64,000 nucleotides of DNA from Candidatus Peribacteria bacterium (GTDB lineage: Bacteria; Patescibacteriota; Gracilibacteria; Peribacterales; Peribacteraceae), in the NCBI GenBank assembly GCA_023038255.1, contig CP082927.1, forward strand, positions 944,146-1,008,145, in the 5' to 3' direction. Positions 51,895 to 62,080 of this stretch are shown in pieces. Position 1 is the stretch's first letter. Each line of letters starts with the position of its first letter. A program made the translations under genes and the position numbers. Under the pieces are notes generated by a model, which saw nothing but the letters and a program-made list of their open reading frames with translations, had not been told where the DNA came from and did no database searches.

Positions 51895-53547
51895 TTATTT
51901 TGCCACCACCGCATGCATAAACCCTGCAAACAACGGATGCGGCCTGTGCGGGCGGCTCTTGAATTCCGGGTGGAACTGGCTTCCCATCATGAACGGATGA
52001 TTCTTGATTTCGACAATTTCCATCAGCCCCGTATCGGGGTTGCTTCCGGAGAAAATCAGACCGTTCTTTTCCAGGTCTTTGTGGAATGACTGATTGAATT
52101 CGTAGCGGTGTCTGTGGCGCTCGGAGATCATGTCTGCACCATAGAGCGCATGCGCCTTTGTGCCCGGTACCAGCTTGCAATCATATGCACCAAGTCTGAG
52201 TGTGCCCCCCTTCTCCTTTCCTTTGTGCTGACCCGGCAGGAAGTGCACCACGTACTTGTCCGGCGTGAGCGTGTCTTCTTCATCAAATTCTTCACTGGTC
52301 AGTGTCTTGTCTCCCAGCACATCACGCGCAAATTCAATCGCGAGAATCTGGGATCCCAAGCAGAGTCCCAGATACGGCACTTTTTCGGTACGCGCATATT
52401 TTGCCGCTTTGATCTTTCCCTCGATGCCGCGCTTTCCAAACCCTCCCGGCACCACAATTCCATCTGCGGATTTGAGCAGATTCCACGTCTCTTCATCCTC
52501 CTTTTCCAGCTTCTCACTGTCCACCCACAGCAGTTCGACTTTCGCACCATCAAACACGGCAGCAGCCTTGATGGATTCGATCACGCTCAAATATGCATCT
52601 TCGAGGTTTGTATACTTTCCGACCAGCGCGATCTTCACATCTTTCGTTACTTGTTCATGGCGCTTCTTTCCCTCTTCCCATTCAGTCATATCCGGATGCA
52701 GTTCGCCAAGATCCAGCTTTTTGCCGATGATCTGCGCAATATTGTAATTGTTTAATCCCAATGGGACATCGTAAATGGAGTGCAACGTGGGAGCGGGAAT
52801 CACTGCAGCACGATCCACACCACAGAAGGTACTGATTTTATCCAGAAGATCATCTGCAATCTTGTAGTCCGCTCTCGCAAGGATCATATCCGGCTGCAGG
52901 CCGATGCGACGGAGTTCGCGGACAGAGAGCTGCGTCGGCTTGGTCTTCAGTTCTTTGGATCCTTTGAGGTACGGCAGCAGTGTGAGATGCACATGGAAGA
53001 GTCTCTGTGGACCCAAATCATTGCGAAGCTGGCGGATGGCTTCCAGGAACGGCTCTCCTTCAATGTCTCCCACGGTTCCGCCAATCTCCACCATCATCAC
53101 ATCGGCATTCGTTTTGCTGGCTGCGTTCGTAATCACTCCTTTGATAGCATCGGTAATATGCGGTACCACCTGAATGGTTCCCCCGAGGAAATCCCCTTTG
53201 CGTTCGCGCGCGAGGACATCGGTGTAGATCTTTCCGGTTGTGACCGTGCTGAGCTTGCTCATCGGTTCATCAATAAAACGCTCGTAGTGGCCAAGGTCCA
53301 GGTCTGTCTCTGCTCCGTCGTCTGTCACAAATACTTCTCCATGCTGGAACGGACTCATGGTTCCCGGATCCACGTTCAGATAGGGATCGAGTTTCTGCAC
53401 AAAGATTTTCAATCCGCACGTTTTCAAAATGGCTCCGATGGATGCGGCGGCGATGCCTTTTCCAAGTGAGCTGCAGACTCCTCCGGTGACGATAATAAAG
53501 CGTGTATGTGTGCTCGTTTCCGGCGATTCTTTCTTAGGTGGAATCAT
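51895..53547 (-). CDS. pyrG: CTP synthase
   Basis: A 550-residue enzyme that makes CTP from UTP, ATP and glutamine. The synthetase half (1-270) has GGVCSSLGKGIAAASIGAIL and the Mg/ATP residues of LDPYLNVDPGTMSPFQHGEV. The amidotransferase half has the nucleophile Cys in YLGLCLGSQ and the His-Glu pair in GSQFHPEF. The start at 53547 (MIPPKKESPETS) gives a short N-terminal extra of about 14 residues; the upstream frame is Arg-rich and unlikely. It is separated from pyrD by the structured region. Confidence 0.96.
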   Translation of the reverse strand: MIPPKKESPETSTHTRFIIVTGGVCSSLGKGIAAASIGAILKTCGLKIFVQKLDPYLNVDPGTMSPFQHGEVFVTDDGAETDLDLGHYERFIDEPMSKLSTVTTGKIYTDVLARERKGDFLGGTIQVVPHITDAIKGVITNAASKTNADVMMVEIGGTVGDIEGEPFLEAIRQLRNDLGPQRLFHVHLTLLPYLKGSKELKTKPTQLSVRELRRIGLQPDMILARADYKIADDLLDKISTFCGVDRAAVIPAPTLHSIYDVPLGLNNYNIAQIIGKKLDLGELHPDMTEWEEGKKRHEQVTKDVKIALVGKYTNLEDAYLSVIESIKAAAVFDGAKVELLWVDSEKLEKEDEETWNLLKSADGIVVPGGFGKRGIEGKIKAAKYARTEKVPYLGLCLGSQILAIEFARDVLGDKTLTSEEFDEEDTLTPDKYVVHFLPGQHKGKEKGGTLRLGAYDCKLVPGTKAHALYGADMISERHRHRYEFNQSFHKDLEKNGLIFSGSNPDTGLMEIVEIKNHPFMMGSQFHPEFKSRPHRPHPLFAGFMHAVVAK

Positions 53548-53627: not shown

Positions 53628-55901
53628 TCAGAGGCCCAATCTCTGGATAACAGGTTTCAAATAAGGCGGAACCTGCAAACCTGTATAGTCTGCATCACGG
53701 AGGGTGCGGCTCATTGCCTTCCTCACAATTTCATCCGGAACACCGCATTTTGACCAGAAGGCTGCCGGATCATCCATAAACGGCCGGATAACCTTTTCAT
53801 ATGTCTGAAGGTAGGACTGCTCAAGAACAGTCATATTCGCCACGTACGGCGAGCGGGTCAGCTGCACGGGAATGCCTCCGGGAATATCTGTCGTTTCCGT
53901 GTACTGATGCTCTAATTGCATCACCGGTGACCACAAATGCGAACGGTCGGCCCCCAAACCGATTGGATCAATATACGACACAGGAGCCAACTGGCTTTTG
54001 GCAATTTTGGCATGCACGCGTTCAAGAGCACCCTCAAATTCTGATCCCTGCGCACCCGGGCCGATAATCGGAATGGCGCTGCAGCGGGACATCAGCCCCT
54101 GACGCGGACTAAATCCGTCTTCATCAAAGAATGTGCCTGCATCTAATTCATCTTCTGTGGTCTCCTGTCCGGCAATGTGATTCGCCACACCGATAGTCAC
54201 AATCCCCCTGTCCCTGGCAATGAGGTTTGCATAATGCATTGCTCCGTTTTTTGCAGCACCGGTAATAATGGCCGCATGAGGGAAATCCCTTTTGATTGCA
54301 TCAATAAACTGTGGATACTCCGCCAATTCCAGCAAACGATCAGCACCGGTCGCACTCGCACAATAGATGCAGAAACGCACATCAATATCCTGCATTTTTT
54401 CCAGAGAATGCACATCTACAAAGAAGTTCTTCCACATCTTTCTGATGATTTTCGGAGTGATCAGATACAAATTCAATCCCTTCTTTTCGAGCTCACGGTA
54501 ATGCTGCAAAAGAGAGTCGCTGACGTACATATCGGACTCATTCTGCGCAATGTTTGACGTCACAATCGAACGAACACCGCAATCCATCAGCTCCCGTATT
54601 TTTTCTGAAGATGGCGTCTGCTTGGCAAACAGAATGGCACGCTGGCGGGGGTCACTCATGTTTCTCATGTAATTACACAGATCCTGGTATTGCCCCGGCG
54701 TCGGTTGTACCCCCTCACGCAAATACCGTTTTGTTGAGGCCACCATCGCCTGATCCTGCTGGACGGCGTGCCGCTCCTGACGGATCTCATGAATACCGTT
54801 CGCCCCAAGCAGGAAACCTGCCAGGTCAGCTCTTTCCTCAAGTGTCGTAAGAATGTCACGAAAGCGCTGGGCATGGGAAGGATCGGACTGCAGATACTGA
54901 TCAATACTCAGCCCCTGATGTCTGACTTTATTGAAAGAATGACCCATGACACTGGCAGTGACTCCGTCTGCCTGAGGGGCAGGATATAGAGACAGTTTCA
55001 CGCCATATTTGGTTGCATCAATAGGCTGATCGGAACGATTTTTCACTTCCAGATGGCGCGGCTGATTGATACCCGTTGTCTTGCCGTTGTCCCAGACACG
55101 GGAAGAACCATGGAGCAGCAATGAGCTTCTATTCTTCGTGTGCAATTCTATCATCTGGTTTTCCAGCACACCCCGGTGCTCAAGAAGGGAACAGCGTGTC
55201 GATCCGATACCATAGGAATGTGGCGCAATGACGAGGTTTTCCTGAATACGCGGCTGAATCGAATCGATTGTCCCCCGCCCCGAACCCGCAAGGGCATCAA
55301 TCACATTGAATTCATTCATGAGATCGTAACGCAGAGGGTACCGCTCATGCGGATGCACCGGAAGCAGAACACCGCCATCACTCAGAACATGTGCGCCGTT
55401 GATCTCCAGAGATCCCAGTTCTTTGGCACGATGAATTTCTACAGCACTGAGTGCGTGACGATCCGGAGGGCGTATGAAAAGACGGCCACAGGCAATGCGC
55501 AAACGGCCTTTGTATCGTTCCAGAAGAGCCGGCAAAGGATTTTCCACGGCAAGGCCGTCTGCATTTTCCCAGGGATGAAAAGCGAACTTTGCCATCAGTG
55601 ATGCATCCCCGTTGTTGCCAATATGGAAGGTATCAGACTGAATGCTGTGCACATCAAACCCCAAACGCGCTTTCACGCTGCGACTCGTCCACTCGGCAGA
55701 CCGCCTGATCATATCGATGCTGGAATGCTCAATGGCAGTCTGAATTTCCCCGAGCTGTGATTGCTTGATAACAATAATACCGTTCGCAATAACTGCTCCG
55801 GAAGCAGAGTCGCTCTCTGCATGATCCAGATCGATTTCATCCACAACACCATCCTGGCTGACCAGCAGCTGATCGAACAGAGATGCAGAATCGTGCGTCA
55901 T
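53628..55901 (-). CDS. Large unknown protein with C-terminal LOG-like (phosphoribohydrolase-type) domain
   Basis: A 757-residue soluble protein. The N-terminal 480 residues are not recognised; they include SYGIGSTRCSLLEHRG and GRLFIRPPDRHALSAVEIHR. From about 520 the sequence looks like a Rossmann fold of the LOG family: FCIYCASATGADRLLELAEY, ITGAAKNGAMHYANLIARD, then RQGLMSRCSAIPIIGPGAQG and SEFEGAL. The last segment fits the LOG signature PGGxGTxxE with two conservative changes (PGAQGSEFE). LOG proteins release bases from nucleotide monophosphates. A role in nucleotide salvage fits its place among pyrG, guaB, ada and guaB1. The fusion to a long N-terminal region is unusual. Confidence 0.7.
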   Translation of the reverse strand: MTHDSASLFDQLLVSQDGVVDEIDLDHAESDSASGAVIANGIIVIKQSQLGEIQTAIEHSSIDMIRRSAEWTSRSVKARLGFDVHSIQSDTFHIGNNGDASLMAKFAFHPWENADGLAVENPLPALLERYKGRLRIACGRLFIRPPDRHALSAVEIHRAKELGSLEINGAHVLSDGGVLLPVHPHERYPLRYDLMNEFNVIDALAGSGRGTIDSIQPRIQENLVIAPHSYGIGSTRCSLLEHRGVLENQMIELHTKNRSSLLLHGSSRVWDNGKTTGINQPRHLEVKNRSDQPIDATKYGVKLSLYPAPQADGVTASVMGHSFNKVRHQGLSIDQYLQSDPSHAQRFRDILTTLEERADLAGFLLGANGIHEIRQERHAVQQDQAMVASTKRYLREGVQPTPGQYQDLCNYMRNMSDPRQRAILFAKQTPSSEKIRELMDCGVRSIVTSNIAQNESDMYVSDSLLQHYRELEKKGLNLYLITPKIIRKMWKNFFVDVHSLEKMQDIDVRFCIYCASATGADRLLELAEYPQFIDAIKRDFPHAAIITGAAKNGAMHYANLIARDRGIVTIGVANHIAGQETTEDELDAGTFFDEDGFSPRQGLMSRCSAIPIIGPGAQGSEFEGALERVHAKIAKSQLAPVSYIDPIGLGADRSHLWSPVMQLEHQYTETTDIPGGIPVQLTRSPYVANMTVLEQSYLQTYEKVIRPFMDDPAAFWSKCGVPDEIVRKAMSRTLRDADYTGLQVPPYLKPVIQRLGL

Positions 55902-55921
55902 AATACAAAAGTATTTATATA

Positions 55922-55950
55922 TTTATACTCACATTTATAAATAATGTAAA
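55922..55950 (-). promoter_or_regulatory. Promoter of the LOG-like gene
   Basis: Minus strand: TTTACA (55945-55950), 17-base spacer, TATAAA (55922-55927), in a very AT-rich gap after guaB. Confidence 0.5.
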
Positions 55951-55982
55951 TACTTTGAAAAAAGCCGTATTGAAGCCAAAAA

Positions 55983-57140
55983 TTAAGCTCTATACGCCCC
56001 TCCGAGATCCGTAATGGCACTGAGGCTGTGCGGATGACTCTCCTGCAAACTCGCCTGCGTGATACGCACGAACTTTGCCTTCCTGTGGAACTCCCCGATG
56101 TTCTTGCTGCCCAGGTAATAGAACGATGAGCGCAGTGCACCCGCTGCCTGATAGAGGAAATCATCGGCATCGCCTTTGAACGCAACCAGACCTTCCACAC
56201 CTTCTGCCACAAGCTTCTTGGCTTCCGTCTTCATATTCTGTCCGTAGCGTTCCGCACCACCCTTCTGCATGGCTCCAATAGAACCCATGCCGCGGTACTG
56301 CTTGTACCACACACCACCCTGCTTGATCTTCTGACCGGGCGACTGTTCGTAGCCCGCAAGCATGGAACCGAGCATGACCGCTGCAGCGCCTGTGGCGAGA
56401 GCCTTGGCCATGTCGCCCATCTGGCGGATACCGCCGTCTGCGACGAAGGTGACTTTGCTTCCTTTCACAGCGCGAGCCACTTCCATCAGAGCGGTAACCT
56501 GCGGGACGCCCATGCCGGTGACAACGCGGGTTGTGCAGATACTGCCGGGGCCAACGCCCACGCGGAGGATGTCAGCGCCTGCTTTCATCATTGCCTTGGC
56601 TCCGTCGTAGGTCGCAACGTTGCCCGCCATGACAACAACTTTATTCTTGTAGTTCTTCTTGATGAACGTGACACAGTCCATGATGTACTGACTGTGGCCA
56701 TGTCCGGAATCAACAACAATAACATCAACGCCTGCACCGACCAATGCCTTCACACGTTCTTCCATATCCGCACCCGCACCGATTGCCGCACCGACCAGAT
56801 AGCGACCCTGCTTGTCGACACTGGCGATCGTTTTGTCTTCAACCTTCGCCTTCTTCACTACCTCCACCATTTTCCGTTGTGCATCCACCTGAAGATTTCT
56901 GTGAATGATCCCAAGTCCCCCGCTCTGCGCCATGGCGATGGCCATATCCGTCTCGGTGACGGTATCCATCGGCGAAGAGATGATCGGCAGCTTGAGCGTA
57001 ATCGAAGAGTGCAGTTTGGTAGTGAGTTCTGCCTGCTCGCGGGGGAACGTCGTGTAGTTCGGAAGAAGCAGGAGATCATCAAACGTGAGTCCTTCCATGA
57101 CGATCTGTGAAGATGCGGAGGAGGATTTTTTGGCGGCCAT
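55983..57140 (-). CDS. guaB: IMP dehydrogenase lacking CBS domains
   Basis: A 385-residue TIM-barrel enzyme that oxidises IMP to XMP for guanine nucleotides. It has TFDDLLLLPNYTTFPREQ, the catalytic loop VGPGSICTTR (Cys nucleophile) and the flap GGVWYKQYRGMGS with RYGQ (Arg-Tyr) later. Usual GuaB is about 490 residues with two inserted CBS domains; here the barrel runs uninterrupted from VTETDMAIAMAQSGGLGIIH through KAKVEDKTIASVDK to the catalytic part, so the nucleotide-sensing module is missing. It is 5 bases downstream of the adenosine-deaminase-like gene, clearly one operon. Confidence 0.92.
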   Translation of the reverse strand: MAAKKSSSASSQIVMEGLTFDDLLLLPNYTTFPREQAELTTKLHSSITLKLPIISSPMDTVTETDMAIAMAQSGGLGIIHRNLQVDAQRKMVEVVKKAKVEDKTIASVDKQGRYLVGAAIGAGADMEERVKALVGAGVDVIVVDSGHGHSQYIMDCVTFIKKNYKNKVVVMAGNVATYDGAKAMMKAGADILRVGVGPGSICTTRVVTGMGVPQVTALMEVARAVKGSKVTFVADGGIRQMGDMAKALATGAAAVMLGSMLAGYEQSPGQKIKQGGVWYKQYRGMGSIGAMQKGGAERYGQNMKTEAKKLVAEGVEGLVAFKGDADDFLYQAAGALRSSFYYLGSKNIGEFHRKAKFVRITQASLQESHPHSLSAITDLGGAYRA

Positions 57141-57145
57141 AGGAT

Positions 57146-58165
57146 TTAGAGGTAAAGATTACGACCGGGTTCCGTCGGAATGAACGTGCATTCAAACGCC
57201 CAGCGGGTGAGCTGATCGATCTGATCTTCATCGAAAATATCGTACTGGCGGAGCAGGTCGATTTCCTTCGTGAGGTTCGTGCGCAGCATCGACGGATTGT
57301 CGGTGTTGATGCAGAACTTCACCTCGTTCTTCCAGAGTGTCTGGAGTACTTCTTTCAGGTGCGCGCCGTCCTTGATGAATCCGACACTGAGGTTGGACGT
57401 GGGACACAAACACATGGTCAGGTTCTTGTCGCGGACTTTCTTCATGAGCGCAGGATCGGTGTAGGCGCGGAAACCATGATTGAGACGGTCGAGTGGGAGC
57501 ACGTCGATGACGTGGTTCATCTCCTCAGCGGTTCCATCCTCACCTGTATGCACTGTGGTTTTCAGGCCATTGGCGCGGGCTTCGGCATAGAGATCGGCAT
57601 ATTCAGCATAGTTAAACACCTCGCCTTTCTTGAGCGGTCCTGCAATGTCGATACCCACCACACCGCGGCTTCTGTATTTGATGGCTTTGCGGACGATGAT
57701 GGCGTTCACTTCTTTCGGCAGACGGCGGTCGAGCATGAGCATCAGACCGGCGCGGACCTGCGGGAATTCCGCAAGTGCACGCTCCATACCACGGAGGGCG
57801 GCGAGGATAATCTGATCCAAATCACGCTCTCCTTCCCGGTTTCTGTAGAGCGGGTTAAAGCCCGGTTCCAGCAATGTGATGTTATTTACACGGTACGCTC
57901 CGGAAATCACTTCGTAGAGCGTCCGCTCCATCGCAACCGGCGAGCTCTGAATAAGTTCGGTGAGGTGGAACAGGGAATGATAGTCCTCCCATGTCACCGT
58001 TTCCTTGTTGAGGGTGACCAAATCGTAAAACTCCCAGTAGTCCTTGGATGGCAGTTTAATACCCTGCTCATGCGCAATAGACCACAAGACGTGTGGCTCG
58101 ACCGACTGTCCGAGGTGGAAATGTAACTCCGCTAGCTCCTTGGTGGGTCTGCTTTGCGTAACCAT
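57146..58165 (-). CDS. Adenosine deaminase-like protein
   Basis: A 339-residue metal-dependent deaminase. Metal ligands: His15 and His17 (ELHFHLG), the His of VHTGEDG with the catalytic Glu, the His of RLNHGF, and Asp in NTDNPS. In standard adenosine deaminase the first motif is HxHLDG and the last TDDP; here they read HFHLGQ and TDNP, so the second Asp that touches the substrate is Asn. It may act on a related nucleoside or base, or on 6-substituted adenines. It lies between guaB1 and guaB in an apparent operon, so it probably feeds inosine/IMP metabolism. Confidence 0.85.
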   Translation of the reverse strand: MVTQSRPTKELAELHFHLGQSVEPHVLWSIAHEQGIKLPSKDYWEFYDLVTLNKETVTWEDYHSLFHLTELIQSSPVAMERTLYEVISGAYRVNNITLLEPGFNPLYRNREGERDLDQIILAALRGMERALAEFPQVRAGLMLMLDRRLPKEVNAIIVRKAIKYRSRGVVGIDIAGPLKKGEVFNYAEYADLYAEARANGLKTTVHTGEDGTAEEMNHVIDVLPLDRLNHGFRAYTDPALMKKVRDKNLTMCLCPTSNLSVGFIKDGAHLKEVLQTLWKNEVKFCINTDNPSMLRTNLTKEIDLLRQYDIFDEDQIDQLTRWAFECTFIPTEPGRNLYL

Positions 58166-58201: not shown

Positions 58202-59872
58202 TCAGAATTTCTCTTTTGCCGTTCCTTCCTGGAATCCGCTCGTCGTTTGGATACCCATAACAGCTTCATTCGGGAATTCCTGCAATGATAATGCATTGGC
58301 GTAACCGGAACTTGAAGCGGGGCCATCAAGCAAGTCATGATGCAAAAGCGCAACAGATTCGCGATTTGGCTTTAGGTAGACTCTACTCTCGCTAATTCCT
58401 TCCGAGCGCTGCCCTACAATTGCGCGGAATATTTCCTTGTCCGTTTTTCTTTGCTGACCAAATGTACGCAATACGGAAGCGCGTGTAGAAGCCATCCCGT
58501 AATTCACTTTGTAGAATCCATTCTTTTCATCGCCCAACAAATCGGACGGGCTTTCATAGGTTCCTGCAAAAAGGCTGCCCACCATGATGTAATCCGCACC
58601 TGCAGCAAGATCGATGGCCACGTCACGCGGGTGCGTTACACCGCCATCCGCCACCACAAATCCTCCGCGCTTATTTGCTTCCTCCGCACATTCCAAAACA
58701 GCAGACACCTGCGGACGTCCCACTCCTGTTTGCATACGTGTTGTACACATAGCACCGGGGCCAACTCCCACTTTTACAAATTTTGCACCGGCAGCGAGGA
58801 TATCGCGCGTTGCTTTTCTGGTGACAACATTACCAGCCATCAGATTAATATCGACACCACGTTGCTCGGCAATGTTCCTCACCTTTTCAATATTGCGATA
58901 CGGAACAATCCCCTGATCAAAATTCGCTGTGTCCAATAAAATATCGTACACACCAAGATCCAGAAGATACTTCACACGATCAATCGGATTTTTATTCAGA
59001 GCGCCAATGGTATAGAGAGCACGCAATCCTCCATTACGTGTATCGAGATTGGGGTTGTACCGCAGTCTCATTGCAGCATCCATCAGAGGCAATACACCTG
59101 TCACCTTTTTGTCACCGGTCACAATCGGCAAATATGACACATGCTTTTCGTCCATGTAATCAATAGCAGCACGGGGTCCAATGCCATCGGGCTGTGTTTC
59201 AAAATTTTCTCTGCGAATAAATGCACTAACCGAAATATCGTTATTCACACCATCCGGTATGTCTTTTTTGCCAAGCACTCCAATAAGAGTGCCATCTGCA
59301 TCGACTGCGACAGCCATGTTATGAGAGCGCTTCGTGAGTAACTTATGGAATTCGTGGATTTTCGTATCTTCTGTAACTGTTATCGGCGTCTCGTACACAT
59401 CATGACGTGTACGCATGTATTCCGTGATACTTTTAAGCTCTTCATCAGTTTTATCCTGAGGAACGGCAGCAATACCTCCCACACGCGCAATTGCTTCTGC
59501 CATACGCTTCCCTGTCACGTTATTCATGTTTGCCACAATGAGAGGTGTATTGGACAGTCCACCGCGCGGCTTCAAATCAACGTCATCACGAGAAAAAGAT
59601 CCACCGATTTTGTGCAGCTCTGCAATCTCCAATAAGACGGAACGATATTCTTGGTATGCAGGAAAATCTATTTCTGTATCGGCATTTTCGACAAGTGGCT
59701 GTCTTTCATCGGTAATCTGAAGATATTTGCGACATGCCGCCTGGATACGCATCCGCTCTTCATCGGTTGCAACCTTCAATACCTTTTTCTGAATATCGTT
59801 ATTCGGAAGAAGAAAAATATCATTAAACGTTGCGTCCGGATGTTCGTCTTTATTGAAGAGAAGTTGAGCCAT
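58202..59872 (-). CDS. guaB1: GuaB1-type IMP dehydrogenase-related protein (likely GMP reductase) with CBS pair
   Basis: A 556-residue protein from the ATG at 59870-59872. It has FNDIFLLPN at the start, then an unusual helical insertion (about 20-85), then TPLIVANMNNVTGKRMAEAI and VGGIAAVPQD as in GuaB1. A CBS pair follows (about 155-275; NMAVAVDADGTLIGVLGKKD and HVSYLPIVTGDKKVTGVLPL), and the catalytic loop is VGPGAMCTTRMQTGVG. GuaB1 of actinobacteria is a GMP reductase. With guaB, it would allow GMP-IMP recycling. Here the CBS domains sit on this protein while guaB lacks them. Confidence 0.85.
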   Translation of the reverse strand: MAQLLFNKDEHPDATFNDIFLLPNNDIQKKVLKVATDEERMRIQAACRKYLQITDERQPLVENADTEIDFPAYQEYRSVLLEIAELHKIGGSFSRDDVDLKPRGGLSNTPLIVANMNNVTGKRMAEAIARVGGIAAVPQDKTDEELKSITEYMRTRHDVYETPITVTEDTKIHEFHKLLTKRSHNMAVAVDADGTLIGVLGKKDIPDGVNNDISVSAFIRRENFETQPDGIGPRAAIDYMDEKHVSYLPIVTGDKKVTGVLPLMDAAMRLRYNPNLDTRNGGLRALYTIGALNKNPIDRVKYLLDLGVYDILLDTANFDQGIVPYRNIEKVRNIAEQRGVDINLMAGNVVTRKATRDILAAGAKFVKVGVGPGAMCTTRMQTGVGRPQVSAVLECAEEANKRGGFVVADGGVTHPRDVAIDLAAGADYIMVGSLFAGTYESPSDLLGDEKNGFYKVNYGMASTRASVLRTFGQQRKTDKEIFRAIVGQRSEGISESRVYLKPNRESVALLHHDLLDGPASSSGYANALSLQEFPNEAVMGIQTTSGFQEGTAKEKF

Positions 59873-59891
59873 AGTGAAGCATTTTCTGCTG

Positions 59892-59910
59892 TTTGACATA
59901 TATTGTCAAA
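59892..59910. promoter_or_regulatory. Perfect palindrome upstream of guaB1 (possible operator)
   Basis: TTTGACA-TATAT-TGTCAAA, a perfect 19-base palindrome 20 bases before the guaB1 ATG. Its minus-strand TTGACA could also serve as a -35 box. It resembles the palindrome at 19424-19440. Confidence 0.5.
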
Positions 59911-59970: not shown

Positions 59971-59997
59971 TGTCACCCTGAGCGGAGCCGAAGGGTT
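59971..59997. repeat. Half copy of the CCCTTCG-CTCAGGG repeat
   Basis: TGTCACCCTGAGCGGAGCCG followed by AAGGGTT. It overlaps the last bases of the hppA stop codon. Confidence 0.6.
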
Positions 59998-62080
59998 AGT
60001 TCCACCATCCACTCACGCCATACAAACTGGCTGTGAGCACAGAAACGATGGACATCAGCTTCACGAGAATGTTGAGCGCTGGTCCGGATGTATCCTTGAA
60101 CGGATCACCGACAGTGTCACCCACGACAGCTGCCTTGTGCGGATCGGAACCCTTGCCGCCGAGGTTGCCGGATTCGATGTACTTCTTCGCGTTGTCCCAT
60201 GCTCCACCAGAGTTCGCCATGGACATACCGAGCATCATGGAGCTCACAAGTGCACCGGCGAGCAGTCCTCCCAGTGCCTCGCGGCCGAGGAGCAGACCAA
60301 TGAACACCGGAGAGACGATAGCGAGCACACCCGGCAGGATCATCTGGCGGATAGCGGACGCGGTGGCGATGCTTACACAGCGGGCGGTGTCGCCTTCTGC
60401 GGTTCCTTCCATCAGTCCTTTGATCTCGCGGAACTGACGGCGGACTTCTTCAATCATCGCAATAGCGGCGCGGCTGACAGCGCGCATGGTCATGGAGCTG
60501 AAGAGGAACGGTAGCATTCCTCCGATAAGGAGACCGATCAGGGTGAATGCGTTGCTGACGTCGATGGATTCGAGTCCGGACTCTTCCTTGAATGCGCCGA
60601 AGAGTGCGAGACACATGAAGCCGGCGACGGCGATGGCAAAGCCCTTTCCGATAGCAGCGGTTGTGTTTCCTGCAGCATCGAGAGCATCTGTGCGCTCGCG
60701 GACTTCGTGCGGGAGCTTGGACATTTCTGCAATGCCGCCCGCGTTATCTGCCACCGGACCGAAGGCGTCGATCGCGAGGGTCATACCGAGAGTGGAAAGC
60801 ATTCCGACTGCACCAGCACCGATGCCGTAGAGGCCAGCCTGCACATAGGCGATACCCATGGCGAGGACGATGACGATGAGTGGAAGTGCGGTGGAGAGGT
60901 AACCAAGAGCAAGTCCTTCAATGAGCACGGTTCCTGCTCCTGTCTTCGAAGAATGTGCAAGGGCGCGGACCGGGCCGTAGCTGTGGGAGGTGTAATATTC
61001 CGTGATACCGCCAACGAGCACACCGGCAACAAGTCCGGCTGTGACTGCGAAGAAGACGCTGTTTGCGACACCGACCGGAAGCCACATTTTTGTGAAGAAC
61101 CAGGTACCGGCAAGCATCAGCACAGACGCGATGATCATACCGTTTTTAAGAGCGGCCTGAACGCCGTCAGCCTTCTTTGTGCGGACGAAATAGGTAGCGA
61201 TGATGGTGGCAATCACACCGATTGCAGAGACGAAGAGCGGATACAGAAGCGCGCGCTCAATGTATTCAATACCCCAGGTGACATGCAGACCCACAAGCAT
61301 GGTCGCAAGAATGGCACCGATGTAACTTTCGAAAAGGTCTGCACCCATTCCGGCCACATCTCCCACGTTGTCACCGACGTTATCGGCAATCACGGCAGGG
61401 TTGCGTGGATCGTCCTCCGGAATACCTGCCTCCACTTTTCCAACGAGGTCCGCTCCGACGTCTGCGGCTTTTGTGTAGATACCGCCACCCACGCGGGCGA
61501 AGAGAGCCACACAGGACGCACCGAAGCTAAATCCTGTGAGAGACTGCAATGCAGCCGTCATGCTGACGTGCTGGAGCAGGTAGTAGAGCACACCTGTAAA
61601 GCCGAGGAGTCCGAGACCGACGACAGCAAGACCCATCGTGGCGCCACTCATGAATGCAATGCGGAGAGCTCTGGTCATGCTTGTGCGCGCAGCCTGAGCC
61701 GTGCGGACGTTCGCCATGGTGGCGGTACGCATACCAATGAGTCCGGCGAGTCCGGAACACACACCTCCCATAATAAAGCTGAGAGCAGTATAAGGAGCGC
61801 CCCAGTTATGCTCCCCTGCCGCTGCAACGCGTACATCAAGGAACAGGTACAGAAGCACACCGACGGCAATCATAAACGGGACAATGACAGAGTATTCCTT
61901 TGTGAGGAAAGCCATGGCACCGACACGGATTTTGCCCGCGATCTTCTGCATAACATCTGTTCCGTCGCTCTCGCGACCGATGATGAAGCGGAAGATAGCT
62001 GCAAACACGAGGGCGATAACTCCCGAGAGGGCAACAATACCGAGTGAGTTGGATAAGGATACAGACAGAAGGTACGTCAT
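59996..62080 (-). CDS. hppA: Membrane-bound proton/sodium-pumping pyrophosphatase, K+-dependent type
   Basis: A 694-residue integral membrane enzyme, about 16 helices, that couples PPi hydrolysis to ion export. The catalytic stretch has ADVGADLVGKVEAGIPEDDP and DNVGDNVGDVAGMGADLFES. The late helix has DAAGNTTAAIGKGF: Ala rather than Lys after GNTTA marks the K+-dependent subclass. Whether it pumps H+ or Na+ cannot be read with confidence by eye. It saves the energy of PPi made in biosynthesis and could supply ion motive force to SecF and transport. Its ATG is at 62078-62080. Confidence 0.95.
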   Translation of the reverse strand: MTYLLSVSLSNSLGIVALSGVIALVFAAIFRFIIGRESDGTDVMQKIAGKIRVGAMAFLTKEYSVIVPFMIAVGVLLYLFLDVRVAAAGEHNWGAPYTALSFIMGGVCSGLAGLIGMRTATMANVRTAQAARTSMTRALRIAFMSGATMGLAVVGLGLLGFTGVLYYLLQHVSMTAALQSLTGFSFGASCVALFARVGGGIYTKAADVGADLVGKVEAGIPEDDPRNPAVIADNVGDNVGDVAGMGADLFESYIGAILATMLVGLHVTWGIEYIERALLYPLFVSAIGVIATIIATYFVRTKKADGVQAALKNGMIIASVLMLAGTWFFTKMWLPVGVANSVFFAVTAGLVAGVLVGGITEYYTSHSYGPVRALAHSSKTGAGTVLIEGLALGYLSTALPLIVIVLAMGIAYVQAGLYGIGAGAVGMLSTLGMTLAIDAFGPVADNAGGIAEMSKLPHEVRERTDALDAAGNTTAAIGKGFAIAVAGFMCLALFGAFKEESGLESIDVSNAFTLIGLLIGGMLPFLFSSMTMRAVSRAAIAMIEEVRRQFREIKGLMEGTAEGDTARCVSIATASAIRQMILPGVLAIVSPVFIGLLLGREALGGLLAGALVSSMMLGMSMANSGGAWDNAKKYIESGNLGGKGSDPHKAAVVGDTVGDPFKDTSGPALNILVKLMSIVSVLTASLYGVSGWWN

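Follow-up and report, generated by a model that had tools for sequence, protein, structure and literature searches.

The 757-residue protein encoded beside the CTP synthase gene in the window (the 64,000-nucleotide stretch of Candidatus Peribacteria DNA analyzed here) is probably a nucleotide 5′-monophosphate nucleosidase fused to a module that binds or processes pyrimidine (d)NTPs; we refer to this architecture as type A. By its fold and its catalytic residues, the C-terminal part is a true LOG/SLOG phosphoribohydrolase domain whose enzymatic activity is predicted. Predicted models strongly indicate that the N-terminal region adopts a two-domain dCTP-deaminase fold. The position beside pyrG is conserved, and in relatives PpnN or another LOG protein replaces type A there. 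The assignment of the N-terminal fold, the exchange with PpnN, and the existence of the N-terminal module as a free-standing protein are what the present analysis adds to the initial annotation of this DNA.

The type A gene, its neighbors, and its family

The open frame of 757 codons begins with an ATG and occupies exactly the positions first given for it, 53628-55901, on the minus strand, which had been left unsaid. Its reading frame survives in 0 of 2000 base shuffles, indicating that it is coding, and its codon usage correlates with that of the neighboring genes in frame (r = 0.73) as opposed to the other two frames (0.03 and -0.04). The gene order, all on the minus strand, is hppA-guaB1-ada-guaB-type A gene-pyrG-pyrD-pyrK, with pyrD and then pyrK downstream of pyrG, and the nucleotide-related neighbors pyrG, guaB, ada, and guaB1 are as the initial annotation had named them (Table 1). 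The cluster carries two IMPDH-family genes on either side of the adenosine deaminase gene: guaB, whose product has 385 residues, and guaB1, whose 565-residue GuaB1-like product has a CBS match. The 81 bases upstream of the type A gene (window 55902-55982) are very rich in A+T, so this stretch is a candidate promoter of its own for the gene.

Table 1. Features of the type A gene and its surroundings, in window coordinates
Feature	Position	Strand	Basis
757-aa fusion protein (type A), whole gene	53628..55901	-	ORF, coding check, homologues
Tandem dCTP-deaminase/dUTPase-like module (predicted), about residues 8-310	54972..55880	-	AF2 model, VIA-align to 2r9q, profile
RSVKAR, residues 74-79, counterpart of dCTP deaminase RSSLGR motif; S75 on Ser111	55665..55682	-	Alignments
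RHLEV, residues 282-286; E285 on dCTP deaminase Glu138	55044..55058	-	Global hhalign; conservation
Residues 311-442, mostly helical	54576..54971	-	Secondary structure of AF2 model
LOG/SLOG phosphoribohydrolase domain, about residues 506-725	53727..54386	-	Profile and structure matches
TGAAKNGAM, residues 547-555, LOG phosphate-binding loop	54237..54263	-	Family alignment
R600, counterpart of CgLOG Arg99	54102..54104	-	Alignment; catalytic role PMC4979012
PGAQGSEFE, residues 615-623; E623 counterpart of CgLOG Glu122	54033..54059	-	Alignment; PMC4979012
pyrG, CTP synthase, directly downstream	51895..53544 (likely start about 53544)	-	E 1e-230
guaB, IMP dehydrogenase, directly upstream	55983..57140	-	E 8e-121
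ada, adenosine-deaminase family protein	57146..58165	-	E 4e-54
guaB1, GuaB1-like IMPDH	58202-59899	-	E 2.5e-131
hppA	59996-62080	-	Gene order

As a lone query against genome contigs, the window protein returned no match, because the family is too divergent and a profile is needed. When 58 genomes were searched with a single protein, eight had matches, at about 20-28% identity, and the profile search found matches in 17 of 74 genomes from the host's taxonomic family. Full-length type A proteins also occur in other families of the class (genomes G430, G409, and G326), and members range from 725 to 923 aa. In the same genomes pyrG is about 75% identical, versus about 20% for type A, which therefore evolves far faster than its neighbor. 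The viral contigs and phage records searched held no type A homologue, and our literature search found no paper joining SLOG and dCTP deaminase.

Three loci stand apart. At L042 6797-7315 (G067), type A is reduced to a broken C-terminal remnant in two frames beside pyrG, a recent decay. At L099 4681-7053, a type A homologue lies on a contig assigned to an Alphaproteobacteria MAG, reflecting either transfer or mis-binning. At L037 8360-9181 (G091), a weakly phosphoribosyltransferase-like gene sits directly upstream of type A and would fit the salvage of freed bases.

The C-terminal part is a LOG domain

Single-sequence matches of the window protein to LOG families are weak and under the curated cut-offs (YAcAr, 4.8e-4; TIGR00730, 1.8e-3). 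An 11-member profile matches LOG structures by hmmsearch, namely the type-II LOG 5wq3 (9.2e-13) and 9us2 (3.2e-12). Foldseek with the predicted model retrieved 3qua (E 1.6e-7), and VIA-align placed model residues 506-725 on LOG 5zbl with a Z of 15.7 and an rmsd of 3.0 over 183 residues; PpnN aligns to the LOG-domain model with a Z of about 13, and the model of the L096 homologue agrees on the LOG fold. The initial annotation had proposed a LOG-type domain here, to be given up if this region took another fold or lacked the catalytic Arg and Glu. The fold is that of LOG, and R600 and E623 are present and invariant in 15 of 15 family members. In CgLOG their counterparts are Arg99 and Glu122, which have been proposed as its catalytic pair (PMC4979012). 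In a phmmer alignment to 3qua, R600 falls on the catalytic Arg and a gap moves E623 by one position.

The TGAAKNGAM loop that had been pointed out lies within this domain. The PGAQGSEFE segment had been said to match PGGxGTxxE position by position; this holds for four of the six fixed letters (P, G, G, and E), the second G being replaced by A617 and the T by S620. The expected G at 617 and T at 620 are kept in 14 of the 15 family members, and the window copy alone deviates at three near-invariant LOG positions (G550A, G617A, and T620S), so this enzyme might work slowly or differently. With the type-II LOGs (CgLOGII 5wq3, Neisseria YgdH 9us2, and TtLOGII 1wek), type A shares the C-terminal fold, the nucleotide-binding motif in part, and the catalytic Arg and Glu. 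Type-II LOGs are about 200-260 aa long and have the motif GGxGT, whereas the window protein has 757 residues, a separate N-terminal module, and GAQGS.

The N-terminal region resembles a two-domain dCTP deaminase

The initial annotation found the long N-terminal region unlike anything it recognized. That description gives way, at least in the predicted models, to a tandem dUTPase/dCTP-deaminase-like fold over about residues 8-310. A likeness to dCTP deaminase (RSxxSRxGL and LSxxEIxxAxxxGxL) was spotted in the alignment prior to any fold search. In the models, which were built on 8-sequence alignments (mean pLDDT 72 for the window protein and 75 for L096), VIA-align superposes residues 8-309 of the window protein on the two-domain dCTP deaminase 2r9q with a Z of 11.7 (223 residues, rmsd 4.2) and residues 4-296 of L096 on the same structure with a Z of 13.9 (244 of 327 residues, rmsd 3.8). 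Single-domain dCTP deaminases give Z values of 10-12 against the predicted models.

Profile comparisons with dCTP deaminases are fainter. The domain-1 profile matches a set of 25 weakly, scoring 25.7 against 18.5 or less in shuffles (0 of 150 as high), and the domain-2 profile scores 21.0, equaled by 1 of 150 shuffles. With hhalign, significant local matches were obtained only to single-domain dCTP deaminases and not to the two-domain ones. Pfam returned no match for the N-termini of 12 members, DCD families included, at E up to 5, and an N-terminus profile against the PDB found nothing credible by sequence. We therefore rejected a sequence-level family assignment and call the module dCTP-deaminase-like rather than a member of the DCD family.

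Conservation within the module is confined to few positions. Only four columns are invariant in 12 N-terminal sequences: S75, G176, R282, and E285. S75 aligns with Ser111 and E285 with Glu138, which we take to be the catalytic residues of E. coli Dcd; the latter register comes from a global hhalign alignment and is less certain than that of S75. Within the phylum, genuine dCTP deaminases with two domains have KSSxGR in the first domain and the LEV glutamate in the second. The L163 homologue has ARSVLGRLGIEV, versus GRSSLGRLGIIV in the host's own dCTP deaminase. In the L038/L039 subgroup, Ser75 and Glu285 are lost and the LOG site is kept. The tandem fold of type A would put the Ser motif in its first domain and the Glu in its second, as two-domain dCTP deaminases (2r9q; Pfam DCD_N) do; type A differs from them in having no detectable sequence-family match, a shortened hairpin, and a LOG domain after the module. 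The following part, residues about 320-440, gave no fold match confined to it, which is not evidence of a new fold.

LOG-type enzymes alternate beside pyrG

We fetched the pyrG-upstream region from the family's genomes and typed the neighbor. Type A stands beside pyrG in 10 of the 74, with further copies at contig ends. Another 10 have a LOG protein of about 330 aa (297-343) in this place, truncated by the end of the contig in one case; seven have a full PpnN (DUF4478 + LOG + PpnN_C; typed by Pfam in three and by profile in the rest), and in a single genome the neighbor is a LOG relative of 412 aa. Different kinds never occur together in a genome (zero overlap between 12 genomes and 18 genomes among the 74; one-sided p = 0.025, uncorrected for common descent). 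All three kinds are found within genus g34 (G091, type A; G089, short LOG; G088, PpnN), and genus g14 contains both type A and PpnN. The seven PpnN-type loci, all in Peribacterales genomes, are L071 683-2104, L069 4399-5817, L045 713-2107, L065 4297-5748, L067 4417-5811, L052 699-2162, and L078 702-2126. Elsewhere in the host genome, a 243-aa PF03641 match (G000:C1:568283) was set aside as a short partial match of a kind present in nearly every family genome.

That LOG-type enzymes are swapped in one slot is the strongest hint that type A does the same kind of job, and it lends strength to the earlier guess of a nucleotide-cleaving or nucleotide-sensing enzyme. Like type A, PpnN (E. coli YgdH, a nucleotide 5′-monophosphate nucleosidase) has a LOG-type core with extra domains, and relatives carry a true PpnN in the slot of type A. 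PpnN has DUF4478 (PAG1) and PpnN_C (PAG2) around the core, neither of which a Pfam scan finds in the window protein, and unlike these the extra module of type A is wholly N-terminal and dCTP-deaminase-like.

The N-terminal module also occurs alone. Proteins of 229-290 aa beside pyrG in G029, G033, and G077 consist of it, and G027 has a 480-aa free-standing N-terminal protein away from pyrG (coordinates L041 6245-7117, L054 623-1477, L040 1787-2476, and L014 5549-6991). All keep the Ser75 and Glu285 counterparts, and the module thus seems able to work without LOG. In four of four cases a GTP-cyclohydrolase-II-like gene lies within one or two genes; two of these genes have a GTP_CH_N domain. In G326, from another family, a full type A gene is in line with a GTP-cyclohydrolase-II-like gene and a gene for a PRAI-like barrel protein. 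The L163 3961-8231 locus, which belongs to another family of the class, shows type A in this arrangement, with the barrel protein and a GTP cyclohydrolase II paralogue that is divergent, and G029, G033, and G060 have a similar pair beside pyrG.

A proposed function and its alternatives

For the substrate, the ligand, and the coupling of the two halves, we infer the following. The LOG half most likely hydrolyzes a nucleoside monophosphate to the free base and ribose 5-phosphate via R600 and E623, and the dCTP-deaminase-like half most likely binds a pyrimidine (d)NTP. The ligand-bound N-terminal half may gate the nucleosidase, in the way that PpnN is gated by flanking domains that bind (p)ppGpp (PMC6717881), or may convert the ligand en route to it. 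Cooperative inhibition by dTTP is known for dCTP deaminases (PMC4827122), and a nucleotide-gated LOG would combine this kind of control with gating of the PpnN type. At high CTP or dCTP, the protein, encoded beside CTP synthase, would adjust the nucleotide pool and return bases to salvage; an adenosine deaminase gene and two IMPDH genes adjoin it. A bolder version, conceivable yet rather doubtful, puts everything in a single chain: CTP or dCTP would be deaminated or dephosphorylated in the N-terminal half and the base cut off in the LOG half, making type A a counterweight to the adjoining CTP synthase and a pyrimidine-sensing counterpart of (p)ppGpp-gated PpnN, with which it would have swapped places in evolution.

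How far the N-terminal half is itself catalytic bears on two other readings. In one, possible though on balance unlikely, it is a dCTP/CTP deaminase, perhaps also a diphosphatase, and LOG then cleaves (d)UMP, with the effect of breaking down CTP or dCTP in excess to uracil and sugar phosphate. The Ser111 and Glu138 counterparts are invariant except in one subgroup and are divided between the domains in the manner of double-domain dCTP deaminases, and the 229-290 aa free-standing N-termini near pyrG and GTP-cyclohydrolase-II-like genes keep both residues. Nevertheless, the Arg115 counterpart is R or Q, the residue preceding the Ser is R or K, and between the domain-2 core and the Glu the chain is shorter than a dCTP deaminase motif-3 hairpin; the host also encodes its own dCTP deaminase (dcd) and dUTPase (dut) and does not need N-terminal catalysis. 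Furthermore, LOG enzymes are best known to act on purine ribonucleotides. At the other extreme, the N-terminus might be only an oligomer-forming scaffold on an ordinary LOG enzyme, as dUTPase folds being trimers, the low overall N-terminal identity, and the N-terminal extension of type-II LOGs, which serves hexamer formation (PMC5379747), would allow. We consider this unlikely, since the invariant positions are exactly those equivalent to catalytic ones and N-terminal copies exist without LOG.

It is also improbable that the window gene is a decaying or inactive copy: its LOG motif changes (G550A, G617A, and T620S) and the real decay of some relatives, such as the two-frame remnant in G067, would fit, but the gene is full length and open with typical codon usage, and R600/E623 and S75/E285 are all retained. 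A conflict-type SLOG nucleotide sensor acting in defense or signaling rather than metabolism, for which fast evolution and the role of SLOG domains as ligand sensors in defense systems such as Thoeris would speak, seems very improbable. No effector domain is seen, the cluster is a housekeeping one, the catalytic residues are kept, the position beside pyrG recurs, and the records searched contain no phage homologue. Among the known defense families in PADLOC, the window protein has no match, and one relative has a weak GajB match (4.8e-4).

Significance

We thus favor a nucleosidase joined to a pyrimidine-(d)NTP module as the probable nature of type A. PpnN gated by (p)ppGpp is described in the literature as a feature of Proteobacteria only (PMC6717881); despite this description, PpnN-type proteins stand beside pyrG in seven Peribacterales genomes. 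The alternation of PpnN, short LOG, and LOG fusion next to CTP synthase suggests that nucleotide breakdown beside synthesis is a recurrent need in these reduced genomes, and that enzymes differing in their regulatory parts can stand in for one another to serve it. With type A, this uncultured lineage has a gene that can be tested directly.
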